The position numbers and the translations under genes are program-made. From Colwellia sp. (GTDB lineage Bacteria; Pseudomonadota; Gammaproteobacteria; Enterobacterales; Alteromonadaceae), in contig NZ_JABSPA010000008.1 of assembly GCF_013214175.1 (NCBI RefSeq), positions 62,001 through 126,000 on the forward strand: a stretch of 64,000 nucleotides of DNA. The letters run 5' to 3'. Within the stretch, counting starts at the first letter, position 1, and every line of letters starts with the position of its first letter. This document shows, one piece after another, positions 2,232 through 24,217 of the stretch. The notes below the pieces were generated by a model. It had not been told where the DNA came from and ran no database searches. It was given only the letters and a program-made list of their open reading frames with translations.

Positions 2232-2308
2232 TTAGCATTCACCTGGCTACAAAAAAACTATTATCTATGTTTCATAAAGTACACATAGAAGCTTATTACT
2301 ACTTTCTA

Positions 2309-4483: not shown

Positions 4484-5646
4484 AATAGTTCATCCTCATC
4501 ATCAATGTCATAAGTATTATCAATTTGATCATTCTCCGTATTTAACTGCTGGAGTTGATCAACACTATTTAAGGCTTGATCGAGTAACTGGGTAACCTCT
4601 AGAAAGTTTATATCATCTTGACTATGTTTTTTAAGCGCACCATGGACTAAGTCGGTAAGGTAATCTTCTTGGTCTTGGGTCATATCTAAAATATGGAAAC
4701 TAGTACCCATTTTTTGCACTATTTCATTCATCACTTCTTGTTGATGATGTTTAGATATTTCCACCATTTTTTTAGTGGTACTCACCGCTTGCTTTATCTG
4801 TTCTTGAACACTAACCAGTGAGTTTTTATAGGTAATGAAAGCAATTCTAGCGCCAATACATTCTATTACCGAGGCTAAGGCATCAATATATATATCCGTA
4901 TCAACAGTGCCATTTTCAAGATTAAGAATGAATAAGGAAACCAAGGTATGATTGAATATGGTTCTTGAGCCAAAGCGATAAAGGCGTGGTTTAATCTTCA
5001 ACAGCTCCATAACTTCAATTTCAACGGGTGAACAAATACCTTTTTGTGCACTATAGAAACTAGGTTTGTCATTTATTGGATAAAAAGCAATACAACCATG
5101 CAAGTCCATACTATTAAAGTAAGAAAAAACCTCATCTCTAATTTTCTCATAAGTAAAACAGTGATTGAGTTTAGAGGTCAATTGCATACAGCTGCCATAT
5201 TTTGACGCTTGCGCCATTGAGACATTTATAACATTATTTTTTGATTGGATTTCATCTTCAAACTCATGGATCTTAGCTTGATACTCCATCAGCTTATCAA
5301 GCTTTGAATTAAGGGCTAATAAAGAAAAGGGTTTTGCTAAAAAATCATCCGCACCACACTCTAACCCCTTAAGTACCGCCTCTTCCGTTGCCGTACCGGA
5401 ATATAGTACAAATGAAGTAGGGGCGTTTTCATTACCTTGCTGCGATTTAATCCAATCAGATCCCTTCTCACTGCCAATATTTTCATCAACTAAAGCAATA
5501 TCAAAATGGATATTTTCTTTTAGTAAGTCTTGTGCAACCAAGAGGTTACTGGCACATTTTATCTCGAAAGAATCTTCTAAACTTTCCGCCAATAAATTTA
5601 AGTAGTCAATATCATCATCAATAATTAATAAATTATGCTTCACCAT
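4480..5646 (-). CDS. Receiver-domain protein with uncharacterised C-terminal region
   Basis: 388 residues. An N-terminal receiver domain (about 4-120) has the acidic cluster IIDDDID, phospho-acceptor D54 and a KPF motif. A coiled-coil-like segment follows (about 118-140), then a region of about 150 residues that I do not recognise. A second helical stretch follows, and the tail is very acidic, ending DEDELF. There is no enzymatic or DNA-binding output that I can see, so it may act as a scaffold, a phosphate sink or an adaptor. It overlaps the hybrid kinase gene by 4 bases and follows crsR by 22 bp. The same type of C-terminal tail occurs in CheD and in the small receptor of this cluster. Confidence 0.8.
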   Translation of the reverse strand: MVKHNLLIIDDDIDYLNLLAESLEDSFEIKCASNLLVAQDLLKENIHFDIALVDENIGSEKGSDWIKSQQGNENAPTSFVLYSGTATEEAVLKGLECGADDFLAKPFSLLALNSKLDKLMEYQAKIHEFEDEIQSKNNVINVSMAQASKYGSCMQLTSKLNHCFTYEKIRDEVFSYFNSMDLHGCIAFYPINDKPSFYSAQKGICSPVEIEVMELLKIKPRLYRFGSRTIFNHTLVSLFILNLENGTVDTDIYIDALASVIECIGARIAFITYKNSLVSVQEQIKQAVSTTKKMVEISKHHQQEVMNEIVQKMGTSFHILDMTQDQEDYLTDLVHGALKKHSQDDINFLEVTQLLDQALNSVDQLQQLNTENDQIDNTYDIDDEDELF

Positions 5647-5668: not shown

Positions 5669-7417
5669 TTAATCGTGCCAAATATAGCTGGCTGTCACTA
5701 AGGTACCTTGCTCTTGATAATCCAGGGTGTCACAAAGTTGATTTACTAATTCTACCCCACGACCACTTAACTTTAATCCGTCATTCATGGCAATGCTGTT
5801 ATCTTTAAAAACATCCAATATATCAAAACCTTGACCACTATCTTTAATATTTATGACCATCTTTCCGCCATGTGCAAGCGGGAAATATTTTAGCGCTATA
5901 CCGACAAAATCTTCAGATACTTTGTTATCCTCGTTGGCCAACAGATCTAGCCTGTGTGCTCGCTCTTTAAAATATTGACTGAAACCCTCTGCAGAATTTT
6001 TTAGCGAGGAGTTTAATCCTAGCACTCCGTGGTCAAGCGCATTGATAAACAGTTCTGTTAATATAGTATATAAACTTTGCCAGTGCTCGCCAGCGCCCTC
6101 TAAATCATTAATTTGATTCATAACTAACGGAATTGGGTTAACCTTTTTAAGTAGCCCTCCCGTTAAATGTAAGTGGTATGACCAAGTAGGTAATGAGTTG
6201 TCGGCTAAAGCAAAGTAGTTATCTTCTTCAGTGAAACCTTCAGGAATTGTTACTTTATTGCTCACCTTTATTTGTTGCCAGCCACTACAGGGAACATCGA
6301 CTAAAGAAATATCATCTTCTTGCTCACAATTTTCACAAAAGTCATCAAGGCTGCTCAAAACATTATTAACAAGATCCTTCTGAATGATGCCGGCAATAGC
6401 CGCTTGTTCAAAACGATGAAAATCAAAAAGGTCACCTGCAGGGTTTCTCGCCTCTACTATGCCATCAGTAATAAAAACTAATCGGTCATTAGGTTTTACC
6501 TGTACCACTTCGACCTGAGCATCGGCTAATAATTGCGGTAATATACCTAAAGGCGGATGTGTGGAGACAAATTGCTGTTTGATGGTCCCCTGAACATCAA
6601 ATAAGTAACCATCGGGTAAACCGGCATTAAATATATATGCCGACTTTTCATGCTCTGAAATGCAGGCGAAACAAGCGGCAAAAAACAAATCACCGGGAAG
6701 TAAGGTAAACATTTGTCGGTTTAATTGCGCGACAATATCTAATATGGAAAAGCCCTTTTTAGTCATGGCTCTAAACGTATCAGTCACAGGAATAGCACCA
6801 ATTGATGCCCGTAAGCCATGACCAGTAAAGTCGCCAAGTAAAACATGAATGTCCCCATTTGGGCACAAAGCGGTTAGCTGGATATCGCCACTAAAAATAG
6901 TGGCCGCCTTTTTAATAGTACCAATTTTATCTAAAGCAAAGTTTCTTGCTTCAATCACCCCTGACATCATTTTTTCAGCCAGCTCAGCATCATTTTGTTG
7001 CTCTAGTTGTAGGCCTTTTACCTGGTCAACTAAATCACTAATCCTTTGCATTGCCTTTATTTTTGCCTTAAAAACCTTAGGGGTAAAAGGCCGTACCAAA
7101 ATACTATCACCGCCCGCATCAACACTATCGATAAAAGCTTGTTCGCTATCCATACTGGTAATAAAAATAAGCGGTGCGAGTGTGCCCTCCCCTGAAAGTT
7201 TTTTTATTCTTCGAGTTGCTTCAAACCCATCCATAATGGGCATATTAATATCCATTAAGACAAGGTCAGGTTGATGTTCAATATACATTTGCACACCACT
7301 AGCGCCATCATTGGCAATAATTACCTGATAATCTTCCTCTTTCAGTAATACCGATAGCAATTTACATTGCATTTTTGAATCATCAACAACTAAAGCAATC
7401 TTTTGAATTCTAGGCAT
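5669..7417 (-). CDS. crsR: CrsR-like regulator: receiver, PP2C phosphatase and HATPase kinase in one chain
   Basis: 582 residues. The receiver domain (about 5-125) has phospho-acceptor D56. The RsbU/SpoIIE-type PP2C phosphatase domain (about 165-380) has metal-ligand motifs GDFTGHG (D196), TDGI (D318) and EDDISL. The C-terminal RsbW-like ATPase/anti-sigma domain has the N-box ELFINALDHG (about 455-464), KDSGQG and SGRGVELV. This three-domain layout is that of Shewanella CrsR. There the phosphatase and kinase act on the STAS protein CrsA, and the kinase domain also holds sigma-S. The STAS gene lies 34 bp upstream, as expected. Control of sigma-S here is inferred from the family. Its place inside a che cluster suggests chemosensory input through D56. 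Confidence 0.87.
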   Translation of the reverse strand: MPRIQKIALVVDDSKMQCKLLSVLLKEEDYQVIIANDGASGVQMYIEHQPDLVLMDINMPIMDGFEATRRIKKLSGEGTLAPLIFITSMDSEQAFIDSVDAGGDSILVRPFTPKVFKAKIKAMQRISDLVDQVKGLQLEQQNDAELAEKMMSGVIEARNFALDKIGTIKKAATIFSGDIQLTALCPNGDIHVLLGDFTGHGLRASIGAIPVTDTFRAMTKKGFSILDIVAQLNRQMFTLLPGDLFFAACFACISEHEKSAYIFNAGLPDGYLFDVQGTIKQQFVSTHPPLGILPQLLADAQVEVVQVKPNDRLVFITDGIVEARNPAGDLFDFHRFEQAAIAGIIQKDLVNNVLSSLDDFCENCEQEDDISLVDVPCSGWQQIKVSNKVTIPEGFTEEDNYFALADNSLPTWSYHLHLTGGLLKKVNPIPLVMNQINDLEGAGEHWQSLYTILTELFINALDHGVLGLNSSLKNSAEGFSQYFKERAHRLDLLANEDNKVSEDFVGIALKYFPLAHGGKMVINIKDSGQGFDILDVFKDNSIAMNDGLKLSGRGVELVNQLCDTLDYQEQGTLVTASYIWHD

Positions 7418-7451: not shown

Positions 7452-7757
7452 CTACTCAATCGTCATTAACCGTTGAAATTGTGCTATTTCTAGAATTTTC
7501 CTTACCGTGTCGCTTGGCTTGGAAATCGTTAATTGCCCCGCATAAAGTTGCACATGATCTTTAAGTAATAAGATCATACCTAACGCTGAACTGTCCATAT
7601 ATTCTGTTTTGCTTAAATCAAGTACATAGCTTAAATCTTGAGTTGTTATACTGCTGTAAGCATCACGAAATAGTTGGTGCAATGAGAAATCAAAGCGATC
7701 ATCAATTGCAATAACAAGTTCTTTTCCATCTCCTGAGATTCGACTGCTAACGGTCAT
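7452..7757 (-). CDS. crsA: STAS-domain anti-sigma factor antagonist (CrsA-like)
   Basis: 101 residues forming one STAS domain, close to the usual length of SpoIIAA/RsbV proteins. The phospho-acceptor motif MDSSALG is present, with S56/S57 as the modifiable serine. In the partner-switch model the unphosphorylated form binds the kinase/anti-sigma domain of CrsR and frees the sigma factor. The kinase domain phosphorylates it and the PP2C domain reverses this. It is transcribed just ahead of crsR and 47 bp after the small receptor gene. Confidence 0.87.
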   Translation of the reverse strand: MTVSSRISGDGKELVIAIDDRFDFSLHQLFRDAYSSITTQDLSYVLDLSKTEYMDSSALGMILLLKDHVQLYAGQLTISKPSDTVRKILEIAQFQRLMTIE

Positions 7758-7804: not shown

Positions 7805-8995
7805 TTAAAATAAATCTACTTCGCCTTCTTCCATATTAAGCTGCAATACACTGCGTGATTCATCTGCTTTTCTTGTCGCTTGATAGACATTTTGACAAGT
7901 CGATTTGAGCATAAGTAATTGTTGGTGCACGTCTATATCGGTGTCTTTATTGAACGTTGCCAAGACATCACTGATTTCATGAATACTGCTGACATTCATT
8001 TGCAAGGACTCTAGTGACTGCCTCGTAATATCTTCAAATTGCAACGAACGAATGCCAAGGCTTACGGCTTGAGTAATCTTAGGTGATAAAATAGCAAGCT
8101 CTTCAACATTCTTTGCTGTCTGAATGTTAACGTCCTCCACATGGCTCATCATGACCGACATTTGCTCTTTCGCTTCAAGGGTTGAGGTCATATCAGCAGA
8201 GGCCATTACTTCAACAGATGAACGTAGATTGGCAATGATGCCCTTGGCTTTATTTATTTCAGTACGAATATCCTCATTTAGCGCGGTGGAGCCGACAGAC
8301 AATGAGCGCACTTCATTTGCAACAACGGCAAAGCCACGGCCAGCCTCTCCCGCTCTTGCCGCTTCAATAGCTGCATTTAAGGCCAATAAATTGGTTTGAC
8401 TGGCTAAGCCCTCAACTTGCGCTAATAACTTAAATATACGTTCAAATTGTGACACCATCTCATCGGTATAAGTCATAGTTTCAAGGCTTTGTTTGCTGGT
8501 ATTAATAATGACACCAACAAAGTCGTCTAAGGTTTTATTTGAATCGATGACAAAGTTTTCTAATGTTGCCCCTTTATCATCTTCTTCACTGCCCGAATGA
8601 GAAATAAGTGCTTTGATCATATATTGCTGCTCTTCACTTAAACTCTGCAGGTGCTTAAAGCTATCCGATATGCCAATTACCGCATCAGCAACCACTTCTT
8701 TGGTCCGCTCTAACTCTTGTTCAACGATATTTATTTCTTGGTGAATAAATTGTTGTAATTCAAAAATGACACTATGGATAAGTTCCTCATCAACCACAGA
8801 CATGCCCAGGCCAGTTTTAGGTATACTTTCTTGTCGGATTATCTGATTAATTTTAGCAGCTAAATACACCAACAAAATCAGTAAGCTAGATAGGAATACA
8901 ATAAAAAAGGTTTTATCATCAATAATAAGGTAACTTGCCAGCGACAGCAGGCATAAAAAGCACGATGCATACAAACCATTTTTTATATTTATCAT
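7805..8995 (-). CDS. Small membrane-anchored methyl-accepting chemotaxis-type protein
   Basis: 396 residues. Two closely spaced hydrophobic helices (about 8-25 and 29-48) separated by only a few residues form a membrane hairpin, so there is no periplasmic sensor domain and no HAMP is obvious. The chemoreceptor signalling hairpin includes [20 protein letters not shown] and [15 protein letters not shown] at about 200-235. The part before the tip is short and irregular, and the protein ends EEGEVDLF. The ATG overlaps the cheB stop by 4 bases. It probably signals from cytoplasmic or membrane-associated cues, or acts as an adaptor within the array. Confidence 0.85.
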
Positions 8996-10107
8996 AAAAC
9001 GTCCCTAACAGTATTTTTTGCTAAAACGTCTTGCATTTCTGTTCTACTTAAACTTGCATATCTCAGCAAATGTTTCGATATTTCAAGTAAAGGTGACTGC
9101 ATAGTATAAGCAGAAATAGCATGGGCCCTGCCAGGCATGCCCCAGATAAGACTTGAGTTTTTATCTTGAATTATGGTTCGTGAACCGAGCTCTTTTAGCC
9201 GTAACATGCCATGGGCACCATCTTGCCCCATGCCAGTTAACAAGACCGCTTGTACGTTATCGGCGAACTCACAAACAGAGTCAAATAACACATCGACAGC
9301 GGGTTTATGTCGATTAACCTCTTCACCATCACTTAAAGTACAAAACAAAGCACCATTTTTATGCACTACTTCTAAATGTTGATCTCCTGGGGCGATATAT
9401 ACATGACCCGCTTTAATTTTTTGGCCATGACTTGCCTCATGCACCTCAACTTGGCAGTTGTCATTTAAGCGCTGGGCGAAACGTAAACTAAAGGTTTTAG
9501 GGATATGTTGGGTTATAACAATGGCAGGAGAATTACTGGGTAAACTAACAAGAAGTTTTTTAATCGCTTCGGTTCCCCCTGTAGAGGCGCCTATGGCAAT
9601 AAGGTGGTTAGCACGCTTGCTACCACTAAAAGATAAAATATTCTGGCTATCTTTAACAACTTTATTGCTTGTTAACGTATCCGATAATTTAAAATTCTTT
9701 TGATCTATAGTGACTGCTTGAGTTATTTTCTCCGTTAACACTTCTCTAAAGCTGGCTTGGGTGGCAAGTAACTCTTGTACCGTTGGCTTAGCAATGAAAT
9801 CTACCGCGCCAATTTCAAGAGCTTGTAAAGTAATGTCTGCCCCTTTAGTGGTAAGTGTGGAAAGCATAATGACGGGCATAGGGCGCAAACGCATCAAATT
9901 AATAAGAAAAGTAATACCATCCATTTTCGGCATTTCTACATCTAAAGTTAATACATCTGGGTTTAATTTTTTGATCAGATCTCTAGCCACGAAGGCATCT
10001 TCAGCCTCGCCAACAACTACAATATTTGAACTGTGGCTTAATGCTTCCTTGATGATGTTGCGAATAACCGCGGAGTCATCAACAATAAGTACTTTAATTA
10101 TATCCAT
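8992..10107 (-). CDS. cheB: Chemotaxis protein-glutamate methylesterase/deamidase CheB
   Basis: 371 residues. The N-terminal receiver has phospho-acceptor D56 and K107. The C-terminal methylesterase domain (about 165-355) has the catalytic triad: S175 in GASTGG, H201 in TQHIP and D296 in GMGQDGA. It removes methyl groups from receptor glutamates and opposes CheR. The gene follows cheD by 26 bp and overlaps the small receptor gene by 4 bases, so one transcript is likely. Confidence 0.96.
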
Positions 10108-10133: not shown

Positions 10134-10793
10134 CTAAAAAAGTTCAACATCACCACTAACCTCTTTTTTATTAATTTCACTGCGATAATTACTTTCTCGG
10201 CGAATAATAGTGTCATTGTGCAAGTTATCCAGTCGCTTAATAAGTACTCGGCCACTATAAGGTTCAAAAATGACTTTTCTGGGGTAAATATCCCCGATAT
10301 CACTACTTTCAATGACAATCTCTTCCTGATCTAAATAGGCCAAGGCAAAATCAATGTTCTTCTGGCCAACATCAGACATTTGATTTAGCACCTTTGCGCC
10401 ACCAAATAGCTTTGCTCTTAAATTTTTTCGACAACCACCTGACCTTAAAATAGTATTAATGAGATGTTCCATAGCAAAGTTACCATAACGGGTTGCATCT
10501 GCCGTTTTGTCTCTTTGTCCCCAATTAACTTCATGTGCTTCTTTATTGGTGATCGGTAACATAAAGTGATTCATACCTCCTATACGGCTATTCTCATCCC
10601 AGATACACGCTGAAATACATGAACCCAGAGTTGTTGCTATAGCAACATTTTCAGTGGTCATATAAAATTCACCCGGTAAAATTTTGGCAACAACCATATC
10701 TCGTTGTTTATCCCAATAATGATTAATCTGCATAAATTCCGGCAAGCAAAGCGCCATATATTCAGATATTTGTGGATGATTATTACGTAGCAC
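10134..10793 (-). CDS. cheD: Chemoreceptor glutamine deamidase CheD
   Basis: 219 residues, the usual length plus short ends. The CheD signature TTLGSCISAC holds the nucleophile C59, and GGMNHFMLP holds the catalytic H76. CheD deamidates receptor glutamines and often takes part in adaptation with CheC, but no cheC gene is in the window. The protein ends SGDVELF, a tail also seen in the small receptor and the receiver protein of this cluster. It lies between cheR (36 bp) and cheB (26 bp). Confidence 0.95.
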   Translation of the reverse strand: MLRNNHPQISEYMALCLPEFMQINHYWDKQRDMVVAKILPGEFYMTTENVAIATTLGSCISACIWDENSRIGGMNHFMLPITNKEAHEVNWGQRDKTADATRYGNFAMEHLINTILRSGGCRKNLRAKLFGGAKVLNQMSDVGQKNIDFALAYLDQEEIVIESSDIGDIYPRKVIFEPYSGRVLIKRLDNLHNDTIIRRESNYRSEINKKEVSGDVELF

Positions 10794-10829: not shown

Positions 10830-11741
10830 CTATGGTTTTCTAAAAATGGTTCTCCCCACGCTACTAAAATACTGTTGATAATTACCTAAATTCTCACTGT
10901 GTCCTAGAAAAAGTAAACCTCCTGGGGCAAGCATTTCATAATAACGGGAGAATAATTCTTGCTGGGTTTTTTTATCAAAATAGATAATGACGTTTCGGCA
11001 GAAAATAGCATCAAAGGGCCCTTGCATCGGCCATTCATGTAATAAATTAAGCTGCTTAAAAGTGATCATATTTTTTAGCTTGTCATGTACTTTGACACTT
11101 TCGCTATTTTGCCCACGCCCCTGAAAAAAATAGTTTTGTTTTAATTTTTTTGGAATTTCTTCAATACGATTAAGATCATATATTCCTACTTTACCTTTCG
11201 CTAAAACATTACTATCGATGTCAGTGGCGAGAATTTTCACATCCCAGCGAGCTAGTTCATTTTTAAGCGCTTCAAGTATCGTAATGGCTATACTGTACGG
11301 CTCTTCTCCGGTGGAACTTGCAGAGGACCAAATTCTAAGTACCTTTTTACCACTCGCACCCGCCGCTTTGTTTTTCATCAAAGCCGGAAGCTCCTCATTG
11401 GTTAGATATTCAAAGTGATGATTTTCGCGAAAGAAACTGGTTAAATTAGTGGTTATAGAATTAATAAAATAATCTTTTTCTTGCTCACCTTGGTCTCTTA
11501 ATAACTGACAATATTCAGAGAAAGTATTAAGATTTCGTTCCCTGATTATGCGAGTTAATCGTCGGTATAACATCTCCCTTTTACTATCATTGAGCACAAT
11601 ACCGGTATTGTTATAAACAAACTGGCAAATAAACTTAAAATCGCCTTGAGACAGTTGCATCGCCTGATCTCTATTAGCCCGACGGTCTTGCAGATGACCT
11701 TGCATATGATTAGTATTCCTCCTTAGCTCAGTCATCCCCAT
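10830..11741 (-). CDS. cheR: Chemotaxis protein methyltransferase CheR
   Basis: 303 residues. An N-terminal helical domain (about 30-100) is followed by a SAM-dependent methyltransferase domain with TTNLTSFFRE, the SAM-binding SSTGEEPYS and the late motif FCRNVIIYF. It methylates glutamates on chemoreceptors. The neighbouring large receptor ends in EWEEF, the kind of pentapeptide bound by the beta-subdomain of tethering CheR proteins such as Pseudomonas CheR2. This enzyme is therefore probably tethered to that receptor. The first 28 residues are basic and glutamine-rich. Confidence 0.95.
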   Translation of the reverse strand: MGMTELRRNTNHMQGHLQDRRANRDQAMQLSQGDFKFICQFVYNNTGIVLNDSKREMLYRRLTRIIRERNLNTFSEYCQLLRDQGEQEKDYFINSITTNLTSFFRENHHFEYLTNEELPALMKNKAAGASGKKVLRIWSSASSTGEEPYSIAITILEALKNELARWDVKILATDIDSNVLAKGKVGIYDLNRIEEIPKKLKQNYFFQGRGQNSESVKVHDKLKNMITFKQLNLLHEWPMQGPFDAIFCRNVIIYFDKKTQQELFSRYYEMLAPGGLLFLGHSENLGNYQQYFSSVGRTIFRKP

Positions 11742-11797: not shown

Positions 11798-14700
11798 TTA
11801 GAACTCCTCCCATTCTTGATCTACGGCTGTGCTTGGACGTTTGGCTCTGCGTGTTGGCGCCGGACTTGCTGGACTAAAGTTTGACTGCCTCGCTGCTGGC
11901 GCCGCTTGTCTTGGAGCAGCTTGTCTTGGTGCTGCTTGTCTTGGGGCAGGTCTTCTTTGATGTTGCTCTGCTGGTTGTTGTTGTTGTTGTTGTTGGCCGT
12001 TATCGCCATTATTGAAAAAGGCAACTTGATCTAATAATGATTGAGACTGTTCTTCCATCGATTTACTTGATGCGGATGCCTCTTCAACCAATGCTGCATT
12101 TTGTTGAGTCATTTCATCCATTTGACTCACCGCCGCGCTCACTTCACCAATACCAGCAGATTGCTCTTTACCGGCACTATCAATATCGGCAATCATTTTA
12201 CTGACATCTTCTATGGCCGTCACTAATTCACTAAAGGTTTGCCCTGTTTCATCAACTAACTTAGTGCCTTGACCAACCGCTTCGACACTGTCATTAATTA
12301 AGCCTTTAATTTCTTTCGCTGCACCTGCGGAGCGTTGTGCTAGATTCCTTACCTCTGCCGCGACTACCGCAAAACCGCGACCTTGTTCACCAGCTCTTGC
12401 CGCTTCAACCGCAGCATTTAGTGCCAGTAGATTGGTTTGGAAAGCTATTTCATCAATAACACTAATGATATCCGCAATCTTTTTACTGGATTTATTTATA
12501 TCACTCATGGCCGTAATGGCATTTCGAACCACAGCGCCACCACTACTGGCCTTCTCCATCACAGATTTTGATAACTTACTTGCTTCAGTTGAATTCTCCG
12601 CATTTTGTTGCACCGTACTGGTTAACTCTTCCATGGCAGAAGCCGTTTCTTCTAAGCTTGAAGCTTGTGATTCGGTACGATGACTTAACTCATTATTTCC
12701 TGCGGCAATTTCGCGCGCTGAATCAAAAACATTGGTGGAAGCATTACGTATTTCATCAACCATTTGACTTAGATTTTCAATGGAGCCATTCATCGCATTA
12801 GCCAGTGCCAGGAATTCGCCACCATAATCACTACGCATACTTTGGGTTAAATCCCCCTCTGCAAGCGCTTGTGCAACTTGAATAGCATCATTAATAGGCT
12901 CAACAATTGAATCCATCAAACTATTAATATTATTGCCTAACTCCTTCATGAAACCTTGGTACTCCTCGGTAGTGATACGGCTATCTAACTTACCGGCGAT
13001 AGCATCGGTAATTAACTTATCTATCTGACTTTGTGCATCTTTTTCTTCAGTTAAATCTACCCATTGCACCCCTGTGCCCACATGATTCCCATCGCTATCT
13101 CGTAAAGCCATGGCAATAAGTTGAAAGGTTAAGCCCGCAACCGAAATTTCAGTGGTATAGGGTAAATTAGCAGGATTGCCTAATAAATTTTGTTGATGTG
13201 CTGGGTTTTTATGGAAGCTATCAAAATTGGTACCGACCATAGTATCGACATTAAAAGAAGGTAAGACAGAACGTAGTGTTGTTTCTCTACGACGTAACAT
13301 AGTTACTACTGCTGGGTTGGCATAAACAATATTACCGTGAGTATCAGCCATCATTATATTAGTAGTCATGCCTTCCATGGTCGAGGTTAAGCGCCCTACT
13401 TCAACAGCGTTTTGTCTTGCTGCTGTAACATCTTGCCATTCTAGGGCATTACCTATGTACTCGCCACTGGCATCCAAAATGGCGGTAACATTAAGCTGGA
13501 AGGTTAGGTGTTTTATCTGAATATCGGTCGAATATGGTAAGTTATTCGGGTCATCGAGTAATTTACGTTGATGGGCCGGATTCTTATGGAAACTGTCAAT
13601 GTTAGTGCCAATAATCACCTCGGGATCGGCTTTAAAGCCAGGCCAATTTTCGGCAAAGGTCGCTTCGTGTTCTTTCAGTAAATCTAAAGTAGCTTTATTA
13701 GCGTAGGTAATAACAAAGTCCCTATCAATCATGATATTGGCGGTACCCGATTGATCAATGGCGCCTTGTAACTGCACGGTTTTATTTTCTGCCGCACGCG
13801 CCGCGGTGACATCTTGCCATTCAAGGGCATTACCTATGTACTCGCCAGCTGCATCCATAATAGCGGTAACATTGAGCTCAAAGGATAAGTGTTTAATTTG
13901 AATATCGGTTTTATAAGGTAAGTTATTCGGGTCATCGAGTAGTTTACGTTGATGTGAGGGCACTTTATGAAAAGTGTCAATGTTAGTGCCAATAATCACC
14001 TCGGGGTCGGCGACAAAACCAGGCCAGTTATCGGCAAAGGTCGCTTCATGTTCTTTTAATAAGGCAAGTGTGGCCGCGTTAGCATAGGTAATATTAAAAT
14101 CTCTATCGACCATGATATTAGCAGTACCCGATTGGTCAATAGCGCCTTGTAACTGGGCTGTTTTATTTTCTTGTGCTCGCGCTGCGGTGACATCTTGCCA
14201 TTCCAGCGCATTACCTATGTACTCGCCAGCTGCATCCATAATAGCGGTAACATTAAGCTCAAAGGATAAATGTTTGATTTGAATGTCGGTTTTATAAGGT
14301 AAATTATTCGGATCAGACAGTAATTTACGTTGATGTGACGGCACTTTGTGGAAACTATCAATATTGGTGCCAATAATAATTTCAGGGTCGGCGACAAAAC
14401 CCGGCCAATTGTCAGCAAAGGTCGCTTCATGTTCTTTCAGTAAAGCCAAGGTGGCGGCATTAGCGTAGGTAATATTAAAATCTCTATCAATCATAATATT
14501 GGCAGTACCCGATTGGTCTATCGCGCCTTGTAACTGTACGGTTTTGTTTTCTTGCGCTCGGGCCGCCGTCACCTCTTGCCACTCCAGTGCATTACCTATG
14601 TAGTCACCCTTGGCATCTAAAATAGCACTGACATTGAGTTCAAAAGATAAGTGTTTAACTTGAATATCGGTTTTATAAGGTAAGTTACTCGGATCGTCGA

Positions 14701-15403
14701 GTAGTTTACGTTGATGTGATGGAACTTTATGAAAACCATCAATATTGGCGCCGATAAGCGCCTCTTTACTCGCTTCAAAGCCCGGCCAGTTTTCTGCAAA
14801 GGTCTGCTCATGCTTTTTAAGTAAAGCTAAAGTGGCTTCGTTGGCATATGTGACTTCAAAATCTCGATTAATCATCATAAATGCAGTCGCTGATTGTTCG
14901 AGTGCCCCTTGCAGTTGCACGGATAAATCGTTGCTTTGCTCATTTTTGACGGTATTCTTTTCCATGGTAGGTCCTTTTGCTGACTGAGTTGTTGCGGCGG
15001 CATCAGCTGCGGCAATCATAGTAGTTGCTAAGGTTTGGTATACCACTGTCCAAGCCTTTTTAACGGGGGCGGTAAAGTCATCACCTAAACCTATTGCTAA
15101 GGTTTTTAGTAACGCAGCGCCAACCGTATCGTAATGTTCAGGCTCTGCGCCGTAGCGAAGATGTTTAGCGCCTAAATTTTGCACTGCAGGAATTAATTTA
15201 TCCGGGTTATCAAGTAACTTAACCGCAACATCAAGCATTGCCATTAATTTTTTGCCTTGCTCGGCCATATCATCAGGAAATAATGCTTTTAATGAAGGGT
15301 CCATTTCAAACAAAGTGGTATAAAATATGTCTGCGGCTTGTGGCGCAATAGGTAATACTTTTTGCCAACTTTTTTGCACTAAACTTATTTGCTTCGGGTT
15401 CAT
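11798..15403 (-). CDS. Soluble Aer2-type chemoreceptor with globin domain and five haem-type PAS domains
   Basis: 1201 residues with no membrane segment. Residues 1-135 are a flavohaemoglobin-like globin, with probable proximal His H81 in AKHLRYG and a likely distal Gln near 49. Five PAS domains follow. Four are near-identical units of 127 residues starting at 162, 289, 416 and 543; a fifth, divergent one lies at about 669-790. Every PAS keeps the Aer2 pattern FHK (H225, H352, H479, H606, H731) and the conserved Trp (W275, W402, W529, W656, W781) that serve haem and O2 binding in Pseudomonas Aer2. Two HAMP units (about 791-895), as in Aer2 HAMP4-5, lead to the signalling domain with its [17 protein letters not shown] tip. 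A Gln/Pro/Ala-rich linker ends in EWEEF for CheR docking. The N-terminal HAMP stack of Aer2 is replaced by the globin. An AGGA ribosome binding site precedes the ATG. Expected ligands are O2, NO or CO. Confidence 0.93.
13400..14920 (-). repeat. Four in-frame tandem repeats of 381 bp encoding PAS units
   Basis: The receptor gene contains four consecutive units of exactly 127 codons, each beginning at (V/A)QLQGA and ending just before the next. Units 2 and 3 differ at only a few residues, which points to recent duplication or gene conversion. The fifth PAS, at about 13031-13399, is divergent and close to the Aer2 sequence, so it is probably the ancestral one. Confidence 0.9.
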
Positions 15404-15537: not shown

Positions 15538-16089
15538 TTAAGCACTTGATAAGGTTGGTGCAGAGGTTGTTGACGCTTGGCTAACCTCTACGTTCGCTGT
15601 CACTTGCTCAGACCTTGTTTCACTCTTATGAACAGTGCGATATAAGTCTTCTTCATTTAATAAAGAATCACTGTCGAGTAAAATAATTAGCTTGTCATCG
15701 ACTGTCGCCATGCCTTTAAGAAAGCAGCCATCAATATTATTGCCAAAAGCAGGGGCTTTACGTATAGCTTGGCGGTTAAACTTATAAACCTCTGACACTG
15801 CATCAACAATAATGCCAACTACCATACTGCTGGCTTTAGATTGCTGCCGTAAAATGATGGTGATGGTTTGTTTATTATATTCAAGTGCGGGTTGACCAAA
15901 ACGTTCACGCAAATCAATAATAGGAATGATTACCCCCCGTAAATTAATGACGCCTTTAATATAATTTGGCTTATTCGGAAGTTCGGTAATTGAGCTCCAG
16001 ACACGAATCTCTTGCACACATAGAATGTCAACGCCATACTCTTCGCCTTTAAGTATGAAAGTAAGATATTCTTGTTCTATATCAGTCAT
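15538..16089 (-). CDS. cheW: Chemotaxis adaptor CheW (second copy)
   Basis: 183 residues. A CheW domain spans about 8-150, with the family features VQEIRVWSSITELPNKPNYIKG... then VINLRG and PIIDLRERFG. CheW links chemoreceptors to CheA in the signalling array. A C-terminal tail of about 30 residues rich in Ser, Thr, Ala and Val follows the fold. It is 33 bp downstream of the other cheW and 134 bp upstream of the large receptor gene. Paired cheW genes suggest that the two receptors of the cluster, or two positions in the array, use different adaptors. Confidence 0.93.
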   Translation of the reverse strand: MTDIEQEYLTFILKGEEYGVDILCVQEIRVWSSITELPNKPNYIKGVINLRGVIIPIIDLRERFGQPALEYNKQTITIILRQQSKASSMVVGIIVDAVSEVYKFNRQAIRKAPAFGNNIDGCFLKGMATVDDKLIILLDSDSLLNEEDLYRTVHKSETRSEQVTANVEVSQASTTSAPTLSSA

Positions 16090-16122
16090 GCTCTTTCCTT
16101 AAACAAAATTGTTACGGTATTA

Positions 16123-16656
16123 CTAACTATGCAGGCTATGCGGTTCTACTTTTTGCAAATGATTAACATTAAGTATGGTGACGACATTTTTTTCACTGTT
16201 TATTAAGCCATCGATATATTGTTGACCCACACAGCCGCCAAATGCTGGCGCTGGTTTAATATCAGTACTCTCAATATTAAGCACATCAGAAACAGCATCA
16301 ACAACAAAACCAATAGTGCGTGATGACTCTTCGCTTTCGTAGGTAAGTACAATCACTACGGTTGTTTCTAAGTAAGTCGCTTCACCAATGCTAAATTTGA
16401 GGCGTAAATCGACAATGGGCACGATAATGCCTCTCATATTAATGACACCCTTAATATAACTTGGCGAATTAGGGATTTTTGTTGGTTGCTCCCAACTTCT
16501 AATTTCTTCGACACACAAAATATCAACCGCATATAGCTCTTGTGCTAACATAAACGTTAGATACTGATCACCGCTGGTGATAAAGTCGACGCCTTCAACA
16601 ACGTGTTCACCTTCAGCGGGAATATCTTGTGCCATCTCTTGAATATTCATAAACAA
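16123..16656 (-). CDS. cheW: Chemotaxis adaptor CheW (first copy)
   Basis: 177 residues. A CheW domain spans about 30-170, with VEEIRSWEQPTKIPNSPSYIKG split around the conserved IPN segment, then VINMRG and PIVDLRLKF. An acidic N-terminal extension of about 28 residues precedes it. The start lies inside the end of cheA (10-base overlap), which implies coupled translation and a direct role as CheA partner. Confidence 0.93.
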   Translation of the reverse strand: MFMNIQEMAQDIPAEGEHVVEGVDFITSGDQYLTFMLAQELYAVDILCVEEIRSWEQPTKIPNSPSYIKGVINMRGIIVPIVDLRLKFSIGEATYLETTVVIVLTYESEESSRTIGFVVDAVSDVLNIESTDIKPAPAFGGCVGQQYIDGLINSEKNVVTILNVNHLQKVEPHSLHS

Positions 16657-18815
16657 ACCTCCGCTGTTACACTAGCATTACCATCAGTTTTTACCCGTTG
16701 GGCTTGTTGGGCTTGTGCTAACGCCATATGGATAATTCCCGGTATATCTAGAATCATAGCGACGGAGCCATCACCAAGAATTGTCGCCCCTGATATACCT
16801 CCGACCTGTTGGTAATTATCTTTTAAACTTTTTATAACCACCTGCTGTTGAGCCAGTAAATCATCAACCATCAAACCAATTTTTTGACCATCAGCTTCAA
16901 CAACAACCAGTAAGGCGTTGTCTATTTCTGTACATTCTGTCGCCAAATTAAACAGTTGATAAATAGGTAGCACTGGCACATTGTCATCACGTAAGCGATA
17001 AAGCACCATATCGCCCGAAACACGATTAATAAGTTTGTTATCAATTTGCAGTGATTCAACAATAGAAATGAGTGGGATGATGTAGGTTTCGCTGCCCACT
17101 TTGACCAGTTGACCGTCTAAAATGGCCAATGTTAGCGGTAAGTGCACCTTAAATGAGCTGCCTTTACCTAGGGTAGATTTAACTTGAATTCTGCCACCAA
17201 GTGATTGAATATTGCGCTTAACCACATCCATGCCAACACCACGGCCGGAGATATCGGTGACTTCTGCCGCGGTTGAAAAACCTGGTTCGAATAATAAGTC
17301 ATATACCTGACTATCCGTTAAGATAGCATTCGCTTCAACAAGCCCTTTTTCTACCGCTTTCGCTAATACAATTTCTCGGTTAATACCGGCGCCATCATCG
17401 TTAATTTCAATAACAATATTGCCACCTTGGTGATAGGCATCTAAAGAAATGGTACCTTTTGCTGATTTGCCATTAGCAAGTCTAACTTCACTTGTTTCGA
17501 TGCCATGGTCAGCAGCATTCCTCACTAAATGTACTAACGGATCGCCAATTTGTTCCATTACCGTTTTATCTAATTCGGTTTGTTCACCTTTGATCACTAA
17601 CTCCATTTCCTTACCGGTTTTTACCGCTAGATCATGAACAAGGCGAGGAAAGCGATTAAAGGCAAAACTGATCGGTAGCATGCGAATACGCATGACACTT
17701 TCTTGTAATTCTTTGGTATTTTGTAATAGTTGCTCAAGACCACTGGTGAGCCGTTCAACTTTGTCCATTTCAAAATCGTTACCCAGTTCTGACAACATAG
17801 ACTGAGTGATAACTAATTCGCCCACTAGATTAATTAAATTATCTACTTTATCTACACCAACCCTAATGGAACCAACCTCAGCTTTTCCTTTAGTTTTAGT
17901 TTTAGTTTTAGAGGTTATATTGTTATCTTCGGCAGTAGAGTCAATAACCAGTTTTGTTTCAGGGTCCTGCACTTCAATATCTTCAGTAGGTTTTTGGCTG
18001 GTGTCAGGCTCTGTTTGCTGTTCATTATTTGTTAGAGTGCTTGAAGGCGAGCTTGATGACTGGGTTGATGAAGTACTTGCTGAGATACTTGCTGAGGTAG
18101 TTGATGGGGCTTTTATTGGCACTAATTCTAATAAACATTCATCTTCAACCCATTCAAATATTTCTCTGACCTCGCTTTCATCTACTTCAGTATAAAGCGT
18201 TAATTGCCAACTTAAATAAAGCTCTTGAGCATCAATGTCCTTTAAAGCGGGTAAATCTTTGGTATCGGCACAAAGTGTTAACTCACCTAGCTCTGCTAAA
18301 GCACTGAATAAAAAAATGGGATCATTGCCCGTTTTCGCTAAGCTATGCTCTGGTACGAAATTGATGTTATAACCAGAGATATTATTTTCTGCAACTTTCG
18401 TTGTACTTTGATTATCACTGTCCGTTGAGAGCTCATCACCCAAAGTTTCAGCTAAGCGCTTAGACGTTTTCTCAACCTTATCAATATCATACTCTTCATC
18501 ATCCCGTGCGGCTTCTATTAATAAGCGCATACAATCGATGGAATCAAGCAATATTTCGGTATCTTTAGGGCTGATTTCGCGTCGGCCATCACGCATTTCA
18601 TCAAGTAATGTTTCTACTAAATGAGTAAACTCAGTGACGTTATCAAAGCCAAAGGTTCCTGCCCCGCCTTTAATTGAGTGCGCGGCTCTAAAAATTGTGT
18701 GAATTGTTTCATTATCCCCCTCTTGCAAATTTAATAATTCAGACTCCATTACCTCGAGTCCTTCAAAGCTCTCTTCTAAGAAACTTGGAATAAATTGTGA
18801 TAAATCAACACTCAT
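16647..18815 (-). CDS. cheA: Chemotaxis histidine kinase CheA
   Basis: 722 residues. The Hpt domain P1 has FRAAHSIKGGAGTFG with phospho-accepting H46. A middle region (about 145-240) stands where the P2 domain usually is. A long Ser/Thr-rich linker and a TKTKTKGK stretch (about 240-315) follow. Then come the dimerisation domain, the ATPase domain with DPLVHLVRNAADHGIE and DISGRGVGMDVV, and a CheW-like P5 domain. It phosphorylates CheY, CheB and possibly the other receiver proteins of the cluster under receptor control. It lies 123 bp after cheY and overlaps cheW by 10 bases. Confidence 0.96.
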   Translation of the reverse strand: MSVDLSQFIPSFLEESFEGLEVMESELLNLQEGDNETIHTIFRAAHSIKGGAGTFGFDNVTEFTHLVETLLDEMRDGRREISPKDTEILLDSIDCMRLLIEAARDDEEYDIDKVEKTSKRLAETLGDELSTDSDNQSTTKVAENNISGYNINFVPEHSLAKTGNDPIFLFSALAELGELTLCADTKDLPALKDIDAQELYLSWQLTLYTEVDESEVREIFEWVEDECLLELVPIKAPSTTSASISASTSSTQSSSSPSSTLTNNEQQTEPDTSQKPTEDIEVQDPETKLVIDSTAEDNNITSKTKTKTKGKAEVGSIRVGVDKVDNLINLVGELVITQSMLSELGNDFEMDKVERLTSGLEQLLQNTKELQESVMRIRMLPISFAFNRFPRLVHDLAVKTGKEMELVIKGEQTELDKTVMEQIGDPLVHLVRNAADHGIETSEVRLANGKSAKGTISLDAYHQGGNIVIEINDDGAGINREIVLAKAVEKGLVEANAILTDSQVYDLLFEPGFSTAAEVTDISGRGVGMDVVKRNIQSLGGRIQVKSTLGKGSSFKVHLPLTLAILDGQLVKVGSETYIIPLISIVESLQIDNKLINRVSGDMVLYRLRDDNVPVLPIYQLFNLATECTEIDNALLVVVEADGQKIGLMVDDLLAQQQVVIKSLKDNYQQVGGISGATILGDGSVAMILDIPGIIHMALAQAQQAQRVKTDGNASVTAEVCL

Positions 18816-18938: not shown

Positions 18939-19301
18939 TCACTTAACCACTCGTTTAATGGTGGCTAATAATTTTTCTGGGTTAAAAGGTTTAACCAACC
19001 AACCCGTTGCTCCGGCCGATTTACCGCGCATTTTCATATCAGTGGAGCTTTCTGTGGTTAACATCAAAATAGGGGTAAATTTAAAATCACCTAACTTGCG
19101 TAACTCAGTGCATAAACTAATGCCATCCATATTGGGCATATTTACATCGGAAATGACCAAGTCAAAATTACTGCTTTTAGCCTTATTTAGACCATCCAGA
19201 CCATCTTTAGCCTCGACGGTTTCGTAGCCGGCACTTTTTAAGGTAAAACTGACCATATCTCTTATTGAGTTTGAGTCATCAACAACTAGCACTTTAGTCA
19301 T
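18939..19301 (-). CDS. cheY: Single-domain response regulator CheY
   Basis: 120 residues, one receiver domain of standard length. It has the acidic pair D8/D9, phospho-acceptor D52 in ISDVNMPNMDG, T in MLTTES and the invariant K of VKPFNP. As the first che gene before cheA it is the expected CheA target. Whether it acts on the flagellar motor or on another output cannot be told from sequence. No cheZ is present in the window. Confidence 0.94.
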   Translation of the reverse strand: MTKVLVVDDSNSIRDMVSFTLKSAGYETVEAKDGLDGLNKAKSSNFDLVISDVNMPNMDGISLCTELRKLGDFKFTPILMLTTESSTDMKMRGKSAGATGWLVKPFNPEKLLATIKRVVK

Positions 19302-19375: not shown

Positions 19376-19651
19376 TCAATCCTTGATATATTGCAATAAA
19401 ATGGCATCTTTGATACCAAGTTGTTGAATACTTTCCTTTAAGATGCTGGATTTTGATTGCCACTTAATTTCTTTACCCTGGGCAATGATGTAGGTAACAA
19501 CGGCAAGGATAAACTGCACTCCGATAGTATCAATCCGTGCTAAGTCACTATCATCAATGGATATCACATCTTGACCATCTATTATTGGTATGATTAGCGC
19601 TTGATACTCGTTCACCTGAGCAATCGTTAAGTCACTGGGGAATTTAATCAT
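19376..19651 (-). CDS. STAS-domain protein at the head of the chemosensory cluster
   Basis: 91 residues matching a short STAS domain. The loop IDTIGVQFI stands where anti-sigma antagonists carry a phosphorylatable Ser, but the position is DTIG rather than DSSG, so a classical phospho-switch is doubtful. It is the first gene before cheY (74 bp) and is probably co-transcribed with the che genes. It may be an adaptor of the array or a second partner-switch component. Its function is not known from sequence. Confidence 0.78.
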   Translation of the reverse strand: MIKFPSDLTIAQVNEYQALIIPIIDGQDVISIDDSDLARIDTIGVQFILAVVTYIIAQGKEIKWQSKSSILKESIQQLGIKDAILLQYIKD

Positions 19652-20157: not shown

Positions 20158-22014
20158 TTACTGTGAGGTGAGTTGGTGATATAACTGCGGCAAACGCAAT
20201 GGTAATTGCGCCGGTCGTAATATCTGGGTAAAACCATCATTGCCAAATAAGTAAGGTAAGTACTCTTGGGCATCGACATCTATGCTGATACAAAAAGGTT
20301 TAATACCTAAACGTTTGGCTTCATTTATCGCTTGATGAGTATCCTCAATGCCAAATCGTCCTTCATAGTGATCTATATCATTTGGCTTGCCATCGGTTAA
20401 TATCAGTAAAAGTTTATCTGTGGTCTTTTGCTCACTAATGACCTTAGTTGCTTGACGAATTGCCGCGCCCATTCGAGTATAAAATCCGGGGGTAATTGCT
20501 TGAATGCGCCCTCTGACCTGATCACTATAATTTTCATTAAAGTTTTTCAACATAGTAAAGCGAATATGGCTACGTTTTACCGAAGAAAAACCGTACATAG
20601 CAAAACGATCTCCGACTGACTGTAGTGCTTCGCCAAATAACAACAAACTTTCTTGCACTACGTCAATTACCCGATTGTCATTATCTAAGTGTGAATCAGT
20701 CGACATAGATAGGTCGGCTAATAATAGACAAGATAAATCGCGATTATTACCCCGATAAGATTTAAACAAACCCTTTTCGGCGGTTGCTGCGGTTTTACTT
20801 TCAATATGAAAATCAAGCCAAGCATTGAGATCAAGCTCTTCTCCTTGCGGCTGAGCTTTGAGCCAATATCTGACACTGCGTAATTGCTCAAATTGTGCTT
20901 GGATCATTTTGGCTGTTTTTTGTAGTTTAACGGGTAACTTCGCCGGCGCAGCGTCACGTGGCAGCATAGGTTGAAGTAAACAGCGATCAGCTTGTAAGGT
21001 TTGAGTTTTATAATTCCACTCAGGTAACTTTATTCCTTCACCCAGTGGAATATCATCTTGTGAGGCCGAGGGTAAATCTAAATCAATTTTTATTTGACCA
21101 CTTTTTTGATGCTCTTGCTTTTTGGTCAAGGTGATTTTATCTAGATCATCAATAGTACTTTGATAATCGTCTTCATCTTCATCAGTGTCATCCGTGCCAC
21201 GGTCCATTTTTGAAAATTCACTCCATGAGAACAAGCTTTCTAAACGAAAAATCATCATGCCGCCGCGACTATCCGGTTCATCGACCCGCTCTGCTTTTTT
21301 TCGTGCACTGCGGGATTTCTTTGCTATTTTTTTCTCTGATTCTTTATCTTCACTATCCGTTAATAATTCATCTTCATCAAGTTCCGCAGCAACTACATCA
21401 TCACTGTTCGCCGAAGGGTAAAGCCATAGGTAAACGGCCTTTGGAGCAAAGTTTACTACGGGAAAATCCGTTACCGAGCCTGGAGTAAATATGGCATCTC
21501 TTATGGCTTGTTCCATGATTCGTTCCACTTGTTGCATCTTTTCTAACGGCGGACGCATCGCTACAAAAGCTTTGGCTAAGCGGCAATATCGTTTATGTAA
21601 TGCGGGAAATTTCTCTAGTACCTCTACTACTAACGCTTGGTTATCTTTGGCCCAATGACGGAAATTACCATCATGATGTGCAGCCAAAACGGCTAACCAA
21701 ATATAGAGATCATAATTAAGGGTTTTGTCATTAAAGACGGCTAAAGATTCAGGCAAACGTAAACTCTCTTCATCTTGCCAAGCGAGGCTTACCAGTTGAT
21801 TGTCGCCAGATATTTTTTGCAAGAAGCTTTTACGGGTAAGATATTCACGCCCTGTTGCTGCTTCCACGCGTTTAACAACATCACCACCTAAGGCTCTAAA
21901 AACCATAGCAACGGATTTACTTACTTGATCAAAATAGACACGCTCGTCGTCAAACTCAGGGTTTGCTTTACGGGTAATATATTTGTGCCAAAGTCCACCA
22001 ACCCACTCTTCCAT
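20158..22014 (-). CDS. norD: Nitric oxide reductase activation protein NorD
   Basis: 618 residues, the usual NorD size. The C-terminal von Willebrand factor A domain has the metal-site motif DLSMSTD at about 431-437, followed by ILTDGKPND. A charged central region (about 210-300), rich in Asp, Glu and Lys, precedes it. NorD works with the MoxR-type ATPase NorQ to assemble or activate the NorCB nitric oxide reductase. norQ is in the same cluster, but norCB is not in this window. Confidence 0.93.
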   Translation of the reverse strand: MEEWVGGLWHKYITRKANPEFDDERVYFDQVSKSVAMVFRALGGDVVKRVEAATGREYLTRKSFLQKISGDNQLVSLAWQDEESLRLPESLAVFNDKTLNYDLYIWLAVLAAHHDGNFRHWAKDNQALVVEVLEKFPALHKRYCRLAKAFVAMRPPLEKMQQVERIMEQAIRDAIFTPGSVTDFPVVNFAPKAVYLWLYPSANSDDVVAAELDEDELLTDSEDKESEKKIAKKSRSARKKAERVDEPDSRGGMMIFRLESLFSWSEFSKMDRGTDDTDEDEDDYQSTIDDLDKITLTKKQEHQKSGQIKIDLDLPSASQDDIPLGEGIKLPEWNYKTQTLQADRCLLQPMLPRDAAPAKLPVKLQKTAKMIQAQFEQLRSVRYWLKAQPQGEELDLNAWLDFHIESKTAATAEKGLFKSYRGNNRDLSCLLLADLSMSTDSHLDNDNRVIDVVQESLLLFGEALQSVGDRFAMYGFSSVKRSHIRFTMLKNFNENYSDQVRGRIQAITPGFYTRMGAAIRQATKVISEQKTTDKLLLILTDGKPNDIDHYEGRFGIEDTHQAINEAKRLGIKPFCISIDVDAQEYLPYLFGNDGFTQILRPAQLPLRLPQLYHQLTSQ

Positions 22015-22194
22015 AACCTTAATTCTTTCATTCAGTTAAATAATAGTAAGATTGTATCAACAAAATTTTCACTTGCTGTGATGTGGGTCAACAGAAGGTT
22101 ATTTCACTTGCAATAGCTTGTTCATTACGAGTGAAATTAAGCCCGAAAGAGGGGAAATAGCCATAGTAGGAGTATTTATTAAACCTAGCTGAGG

Positions 22195-22620
22195 TTATTT
22201 AGGTTTAGGAAAATTTAAAATAGGGTCGTTATTAAAACGTGGTTTACATTCAGTAGGCAATTTTTTAACCAAGACTCGACGAAAAGATTCATCAAGGGTC
22301 AGCCACTGATTAACCAATTCGGGATGGGTATTGGTTTCTCTAAAAGTATCTAAAAGTAGTTGTCTTCTAACATCAAATAACTCGTCCGGAATAAACATAT
22401 GTTTATGCGCTATTGGCGGCGCTTTGCCTATGTAGTGATTTTCGCCGCCCAAGACTTTTTGCATAAAATCAACTTGCTGGTCTTCAATATGCTGCTGTGA
22501 AATATTAAGAAAATACTGCTTTAACCATGGGTGTTGATAAACTTTATCGTAAAAAACTTTGTTAATAGTAATTAAACTAGCGCGCCCGCCTATTCGGTTA
22601 AAGTTTTCACTTCTGGTCAT
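22195..22620 (-). CDS. Truncated haemoglobin-like protein in the NO gene cluster
   Basis: About 141 residues. The FNRIGGRASL start helix, the VYQHPWLKQYF segment and YIGKAPPIAHKHMFI (with a likely proximal His) are typical of group 1-like truncated globins, and the C-terminal extension is rich in Pro and Lys. Such globins bind O2 and NO and can oxidise NO to nitrate. A start 24 bases further upstream (22644) is possible. However, the ATG at 22620 has a strong AGGGG ribosome binding site 11 bases before it, while the upstream one has none. Its place between norF and norD supports a role in NO handling. Confidence 0.8.
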   Translation of the reverse strand: MTRSENFNRIGGRASLITINKVFYDKVYQHPWLKQYFLNISQQHIEDQQVDFMQKVLGGENHYIGKAPPIAHKHMFIPDELFDVRRQLLLDTFRETNTHPELVNQWLTLDESFRRVLVKKLPTECKPRFNNDPILNFPKPK

Positions 22621-22727
22621 TGCACAATGCGCCCCTATAGCCATTAGAAGAATAAATAGTTAACTAAATTATTACTAAACATTAGCTAAATTGTAGCCAA
22701 ACTATAGGGTAAAAAAGCTAACATGGA

Positions 22728-23147: not shown

Positions 23148-23242
23148 ACTTCTCTCCTTGATTTTATTTTTAATGACTAAGCTATTTTTAATGACTAGAA
23201 TTTTTTAAATATTGTCTGTTAGTTGTTTTGGCATTACCAATA

Positions 23243-24146: not shown

Positions 24147-24217
24147 AAAAATTAAACGATAACTTATGGATAACTGATTGAGAATTTATTGATAGCTTAT
24201 TGAGAGCTTATTGATAA

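Follow-up and report, generated by a model that had tools for sequence, protein, structure and literature searches.

The stretch analysed here (the window, 64,000 nucleotides of contig NZ_JABSPA010000008.1 from Colwellia sp.) carries on its minus strand a single gene for a chemoreceptor of 1201 amino acids. The protein comprises a globin, five Aer2-type PAS domains, a di-HAMP unit, a methyl-accepting chemotaxis protein (MCP) signalling domain and a WEEF tail (Table 1). This layout, with its N-terminal globin, had been proposed in a sequence-only reading of the window, and profiles and alignments uphold it. In a protein search the receptor scores 1418 bits with the NF041847 (Aer2) model, whose curated cut-off is 1200; a six-frame search breaks the same match into pieces, each under the cut-off. 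Hydropathy gives no transmembrane segment, the highest 19-residue Kyte-Doolittle mean being 1.24, within the signalling domain. By these signatures the receptor is a cytoplasmic member of the Aer2 family (F7), a variant with a globin and multiplied PAS domains. An assembly artefact is ruled out: the longest identical run between PAS copies is 47 nucleotides (nt), and a congener gives the same layout. We consider it quite probable that the gene encodes an F7 Aer2 receptor that combines an added globin, duplicated haem-PAS domains and a dual start.

The most interesting part is a putative internal start in the linker between the globin and PAS1, where the gene reads AAAAGGA-CCTACC-ATG (14978-14963). 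The first word resembles a Shine-Dalgarno (SD) sequence, and the in-frame ATG (Met147) would begin a globin-free product of 1055 residues. Anti-SD energy is -5.3 at this site and -4.3 at the gene's own start, and predicted structure around the internal site is weaker than in 98% of windows along the gene. We compared the linkers of related proteins up to a length of 60 residues, leaving out three proteins with longer ones. All 64 distinct linkers contain an in-frame ATG, while about 57% of 28-residue linkers would be expected to contain a Met by chance (an estimate from the 3.0% Met of these proteins). An SD core lies 4-10 nt before such an ATG in 56 of the 64 (counted per linker, over 99 ATGs); among the remaining internal ATGs of these genes, 171 of 1657 have one (counted per ATG). 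The words are GGAGG (17), GAGG (14), AAGGA (13), AGGAG (7), GGAG (4) and AAGG (1).

Linker ATGs also have stronger predicted pairing with the ribosome. Median anti-SD energy is -5.6 at the 99 linker ATGs versus -1.9 at the 1657 controls (Mann-Whitney p 1.8e-27), and 63 of the 99 reach -5 or lower, versus 10.4% of controls. Where the linker has a single ATG (n=38), 31 reach this level (p 1e-18 versus controls) and 29 surpass the average of their synonymous-codon shuffles (p 4e-6). This subset and the all-ATG test are free of any choice of a best ATG and of the mismatch between per-linker and per-ATG counts. Codon choice can be followed in FA, the fused globins of Alteromonadales; FB denotes the remaining fused globins, a separate tree group. 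In 15 FA linkers with the motif (K/E)-G-x-x-Met, the Gly codon within the SD is GGA in 13, the others having GGT and GGG in GAGGG words; GGA makes up 11.7% of Gly codons in these genes overall.

Such a site might also be a disused relic of the joint at which a globin gene, its stop codon lost, was fused to aer2, or a pause site for globin folding. Its position agrees with a fusion joint, which predicts a resemblance to the start of globin-less Aer2: the linker ATG lies 6-26 residues ahead of PAS1 (mode 18), and nine globin-less relatives have likely starts (chosen by best SD) 17-39 residues ahead of it. We nevertheless find a relic improbable. When relatives are thinned to 24 lineages with globins less than 60% identical (22 FB, 2 FA), 23 keep a site at or below -5, versus 14% of 623 controls, although the linkers otherwise vary in length and letters. 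Taken together, the actual codons make for stronger sites than synonymous shuffles do (p 1.2e-5), and the distance from SD to ATG varies little (8 nt in 29, 6 nt in 14 and 9 nt in 8 of the 56 linkers). Pausing, for its part, requires no ATG.

Several points weigh against a dual start and the wider proposal. Eight of the 64 linkers have no SD core ahead of any ATG, the sites of four FA linkers (L048, L047, L136 and L046) have weak energies of -2.4 to -4.0, and in L163 and L168 a GTG with a strong SD scores above the ATG. Taken singly, five of the 64 linkers outdo their own synonymously shuffled versions at p <0.05 and 14 at <0.1; the signal lies in the sum. The thinned test and the 64-linker shuffle test take the best ATG of each linker, and the unequal counting behind the 56 of 64 has been mentioned. 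Because the sequences are related, p values are too small and independence is overstated. The linker itself is modelled with a predicted local distance difference test (pLDDT) score below 50 at residues 143-160, about 40, and such a linker appears to offer no rigid route from globin to PAS; disordered in this way, the globin could hardly act on PAS1 as a rigid rod. Finally, Aer2 is the best-studied haem-PAS receptor type, yet the accessible text of PMC7184735 calls the function of F7 arrays in stages 1 and 2 unclear.

We nonetheless regard the sequence evidence for the internal start as strong. With an SD and an in-frame ATG in the linker, the gene most likely yields two receptors, one long and globin-bearing, the other short and globin-free. 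It is somewhat probable that gammaproteobacterial globin-Aer2 genes in general each specify two receptors through a conserved internal ribosome site. F7 arrays would then be tunable mixtures of globin-capped and bare receptors, with up to six haems per long chain (seven or eight in relatives), and by mixing both forms in one array the cell could set the globin load on its sensor. CheA and CcmM are known dual-start genes, in the available part of PMC11005335, and AerR is made in two forms with opposite actions from a dual start, in that of PMC6199135. All three resemble the present proposal in that one gene gives two products by internal initiation; they differ in that they are not chemoreceptors and lose no sensory globin. 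A dual-start chemoreceptor was not found among the literature matches listed. The conserved internal start makes the role of the globin directly testable, one product at a time.

The N-terminal domain is predicted to be an F-type globin. Pfam gives a match to PF00042 and none, at E 0.1, to PF11563, which we take to be the S-family protoglobin of HemAT-type globin-coupled sensors; a sensor of that type is thereby ruled out. The two models overlap, since PF11563 also matches one of the globins of L050, a relative, and a flavohaemoglobin-like protein encoded in the same genome as the receptor. Model and alignments show a 3/3 globin fold with the Tyr, Phe, Gln and His of the F-type pocket, presumably TyrB10, PheCD1, GlnE7 and HisF8. 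Each of these is kept in 19 or 20 of 20 FA and in 49 of 49 FB fused globins, which makes the pocket nearly invariant. A Paraglaciecola globin-Aer2 (L058) has Arg replacing the proximal His, and a long branch, a possible loss of haem in one lineage. The closest solved globins, with the same fold, are Hell's Gate HGbI and the HGbIV-roadblock fusion of Methylacidiphilum; the second is likewise a fusion, but neither is part of a chemoreceptor.

In globin trees, whose single-domain rows were chosen by likeness to the window globin, FA sits with single-domain globins and FB forms a separate group. Two independent captures of a globin are not established, as approximately unbiased (AU) tests do not reject a single origin. 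One (p 0.554) dropped 4 long or odd rows, and the tree forcing FA and FB together had the higher likelihood; the other (p 0.453) dropped 8 and was thinned to <80% identity (69 rows). As far as the fetched stretches reach, no separate globin open reading frame (ORF) adjoins any of 53 Aer2 ORFs that lack a globin.

We propose that this ligand-binding globin is attached to the Aer2 N-terminus through a flexible linker and may act through contact, dimerising or gas buffering. Buffering could be its whole role: a tethered ligand buffer or NO/O2 scavenger would shape the gas seen by the PAS haems without itself being a sensor. The linker, disordered in the model and 17-34 residues long in 68 of 71 rows (some of them repeats), would suit a tether, and the pocket is like those of O2-binding HGbI and flavohaemoglobins. 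If a globin-free form is made, as it seems to be, the signalling chain would not need the globin, and nor accessory-type genes with a truncated globin adjoin the cluster in part of the genus. However, no reductase domain is fused to the globin, and in both FA and FB it occupies the same N-terminal end, usually directly ahead of the first PAS. A pure buffer is a real possibility, though less likely than not.

All five PAS copies of the receptor retain the haem-ligand His and the distal Trp of the pocket. PAS3 and PAS5 match 6ceq, 3vol and 4hi4 by sequence, although 6ceq carries Leu where the receptor has the Trp. The predicted folds agree: a PAS of each structure model matches these entries (PAS1 or PAS2 giving one 6ceq match), and the globin matches HGbI. 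These models speak to fold, not haem, and the fold-match list of the globin-containing model is filled by globin matches. The His of the FHK motif in PAS3 and PAS5 aligns with the His of Pseudomonas aeruginosa Aer2 that counts as H234, on the assumption that its Trp is W283. H234 is a haem ligand in the consulted portion of PMC13401364.

More widely, 294 of 300 Aer2-type PAS copies from 92 ORFs have both residues, His and Trp, as do 110 of 110 copies of a second, partly overlapping set that leaves out copies under 86 residues. Copies were counted as matches to two Aer2-type hidden Markov models (HMMs) at E 1e-3. The figure of 294 therefore applies to Aer2-type copies only, other types such as the Pfam PAS_3 domains of L051, L067, L120 and the second ORF of L049 being left out. 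The six exceptions are in the second ORF of L049, L062 (three), L107 and L124; in the last two, the lost letter falls at a stretch or contig end. This near-universal retention is indirect support for a haem in each PAS. With the proximal His81 of the globin, the six candidate haem sites put forward earlier stand in the sequence, and one b haem per PAS plus one in the globin would most likely give up to six candidate gas-binding sites per chain.

The PAS stack appears to have grown from within. PAS2 and PAS3 share 96% of their amino acids and 87.5% of their nucleotides, with a ratio of nonsynonymous to synonymous change (dN/dS) of 0.04; four other pairs give 0.07-0.12 (six pairs tried, one not computable). 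In a PAS tree of 27 loci, some repeating one genome, there is a group for the last copies, one for the penultimate copies of the genus and one for most of the first copies, whereas middle copies often cluster with other middle copies from their own protein. The tree has exceptions, such as the second PAS of L125 among first copies, and weakly supported forks. This grouping points to a probable ancestral layout of globin, PAS1, penultimate PAS and last PAS, with extra copies added in the middle, probably through tandem duplication or gene conversion. In the window receptor, middle-copy tandem duplication would thus have enlarged the usual three to five.

Multiplication of this kind is also what spacers would undergo, if PAS number sets receptor height or array packing and drifts by unequal recombination. 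PAS number ranges from 3 to 6 within one genus, with middle copies duplicated inside species, and PAS layers correlate with F7 array layers in the accessible part of PMC7184735. Retention of haem His and Trp in nearly all copies, with dN/dS of 0.04-0.12, exceeds what a spacer needs, and we think this explanation quite unlikely. The sequence-only reading had instead suggested haem sensors of graded affinity, widening dynamic range or telling O2 from NO. Globin and PAS haems do differ in kind, and the tree places PAS1, PAS4 and PAS5 in separate groups that are for the most part specific to position. The near identity of PAS2 and PAS3 runs counter to grading between those two, however, and the three PAS of Vibrio vulnificus Aer2 are reported to be similar in O2 affinity though different in signalling role (review PMC13401364, text in part). 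Graded copies look doubtful, if less so than spacers. We favour a stack of haem sensors whose gas signal would pass in line by way of PAS5 and then the di-HAMP, reaching the MCP tip and CheA, by analogy with Pseudomonas and Vibrio Aer2.

Globin-Aer2 receptors are spread widely and unevenly in Gammaproteobacteria, so the layout is not unique. Aer2 PAS domains occur in 11 of the 25 genus genomes (own included), and all 11 have a globin ahead of them. PAS counts in ten receptors are 5, 5, 6, 6, 4, 4, 5, 3, 3 and 5, and the eleventh (G020) is broken within the repeats. In a class sample of 369 genomes, a globin match at 1e-15 occurs in 68, and in an ORF of at least 780 residues in 32 (own included). 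Globin-PAS-MCP was verified in 32 of the 369 (own included), mostly with three PAS; the other 31 genomes gave 34 fetched loci, of which 33 are globin-PAS-MCP, at least one per genome. The earlier reading was right that a globin and repeated Aer2-like PAS share one chain, and the layout proved not to be rare. In a phylum sample of 398 genomes, 30 have a globin match and four globin-PAS-MCP (own included). Hosts include Colwellia, Thalassotalea, Glaciecola, Paraglaciecola, Methylophaga and gammaproteobacterial metagenome-assembled genomes (MAGs). Loci partly repeat genomes (e.g., L113 = L122, L042 = L125 and L045 = L178).

Of the 123 distinct Aer2-type proteins collected, 70 have a globin, with 1-6 Aer2-type PAS; this set leans towards the query, and proteins sharing their last 400 residues were merged in it. 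The globin-bearing proteins offer a natural series for testing how multi-sensor receptors integrate gas signals. One MAG receptor (L050, 1-4599) has four tandem globins and four Aer2-type PAS ahead of its MCP domain, which could give eight haems per chain. Other Aer2-like receptors (L070, L079, L115, L120 and L067) have CHASE3, NIT or PAS_3 ahead of the haem PAS, and their N-terminal part seems to be a site of module swapping. At L049 (7648-10524), a second receptor with PAS_3-type domains and an identical WEEF tail lies directly behind aer2. L153 (genome G073; ORF 1-2082) encodes 838 residues with a globin and no match to Aer2-type PAS or MCP, directly upstream of a globin-Aer2 gene. By its sequence it is a different fusion of the same globin clade; G073 was counted as positive through its second gene (L176).

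Known receptors share parts of this architecture. Vibrio Aer2 (two PAS in V. cholerae, three in V. vulnificus) has the PAS stack, di-HAMP and MCP domain, and the Vibrio-type model NF041847 aligns with the receptor from PAS3-PAS5 to the tail; fetched Vibrio-type relatives also share the F7 cluster and pentapeptide. Unlike the present receptor, with its globin and five PAS, the Vibrio proteins have two or three PAS without a globin. Pseudomonas aeruginosa Aer2/McpB shares the haem-PAS His and Trp, di-HAMP and CheR-tether tail, but has one PAS, three N-terminal HAMPs, a stage-2 cluster and no globin. HemAT and other globin-coupled sensors likewise bear an N-terminal haem globin on an MCP; theirs, we assume, is of the S family, while the present globin is of the F type (PF00042) and is separated from the MCP by haem PAS domains. 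In the part of PMC3287990 available, a 2012 globin study, MCP fusions are placed among S-family globins. No description of a globin fused to Aer2 appears in the titles and opening lines of the literature matches listed, which cover few subscription journals; the sequence-only reading likewise knew of none. Globin-Aer2 is apparently a widespread, undescribed subfamily.

The receptor gene lies within a chemosensory cluster ordered STAS, cheY, cheA, cheW, cheW, aer2, cheR, cheD, cheB, mcpA-like, STAS and REC-SpoIIE phosphatase. The stage-1 F7 order in the text seen of PMC7184735 is the same, and by gene order the receptor is the Aer2 of a stage-1 F7 cluster. The sequence-only reading had mentioned neither the strand nor this cluster nor the internal start. 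The order of the core from cheA to cheB is kept wherever visible in 29 loci compared, several ended by the fetched length. The tether pentapeptide pattern (from the available part of PMC7184735) is present in 91 of 91 ORFs with a signalling domain (repeats included).

Table 1. Features of the receptor gene and its surroundings (positions in the window)
Feature	Positions	Strand	Basis
aer2-type receptor gene, globin-PAS x5-HAMP x2-MCP-pentapeptide, 1201 aa	11798..15403	-	NF041847 (Aer2) profile match
F-type globin domain (predicted), residues 1-135 (Tyr28, Phe42, Gln49, Leu53, proximal His81)	14999..15403	-	Pfam PF00042, alignments, model
Putative internal SD AAAAGGA, globin-PAS1 linker, codons 142-144	14972..14978	-	sequence
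In-frame ATG (Met147), putative start of globin-free 1055-aa form	14963..14965	-	sequence
PAS1, residues 163-287, His225, Trp275	14543..14917	-	secondary structure, 78% identity to PAS3
PAS2, residues 290-414, His352, Trp402	14162..14536	-	96% aa identity to PAS3
PAS3, residues 417-541, His479, Trp529	13781..14155	-	6ceq E 2e-21, 3vol E 9e-17
PAS4, residues 544-668, His606, Trp656	13400..13774	-	85% identity to PAS3
PAS5, residues 671-786, His731, Trp781	13046..13393	-	counterpart of HAMP-adjacent PAS in Vibrio/Pseudomonas Aer2
di-HAMP unit, residues about 787-881	12761..13045	-	HAMP_2/HAMP Pfam, 3vol aligned through 881, helices in model
MCP signalling domain, residues 943-1099	12107..12577	-	Pfam
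C-terminal pentapeptide EWEEF, CheR tether type	11801..11815	-	motif x-[HFYW]-x2-[HFYW]
Two cheW-like genes (15538-16089, 16123-16656)	15538..16656	-	sight and synteny, no HMM
cheA (F7)	16647..18815	-	best NCBIfam match CheA, below model cut-off
cheY-like receiver	18939..19301	-	sight and synteny
STAS protein	19376..19651	-	Pfam, scores just under cut-off
cheR	10830..11741	-	best NCBIfam match CheR, below model cut-off
cheD	10134..10793	-	sight and synteny
cheB	8992..10107	-	NCBIfam
mcpA-like small receptor	7805..8995	-	matches only MCP signalling parts; mcpA name from cluster place
STAS anti-sigma-antagonist-like	7452..7757	-	Pfam
REC-SpoIIE (PP2C) serine phosphatase with HATPase_c_2	5669..7417	-	Pfam
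Three genes behind the PP2C gene	867..5646	-	
nor accessory-like genes	20158..25000	-	Pfam; nor names by sight
Truncated globin gene	22195..22644	-	

The genome has two further CheA homologues, so control of the flagellum may lie outside this cluster. Together with the STAS proteins and the receiver-PP2C phosphatase, they suggest that the cluster's output may be partner switching or a stress response, instead of the flagellum or besides it. For a related Shewanella system, the accessible text of PMC9855816 gives a possible role in RpoS regulation.

The PP2C gene is followed by genes for a REC protein, a receiver-bearing PAS histidine kinase and, named by sight, a REC-GGDEF-type protein. Of 10 genus loci, 6 have the REC protein gene as the neighbour of the PP2C gene; the other four are incomplete or without a match. 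Upstream of the cluster, the nor accessory-like genes comprise VWA/NorD-like, COX3/NorE-like and COX4/NorF-like genes and a CbbQ/NirQ/NorQ-type AAA gene, with the truncated globin gene among them. In the genus (some loci incomplete), the truncated globin adjoins the F7 cluster in 6 of 10 loci and the NorD-like gene in 4 of 10. A NorB/NorC-like pair, named by sight, lies elsewhere in the genome (locus L133).

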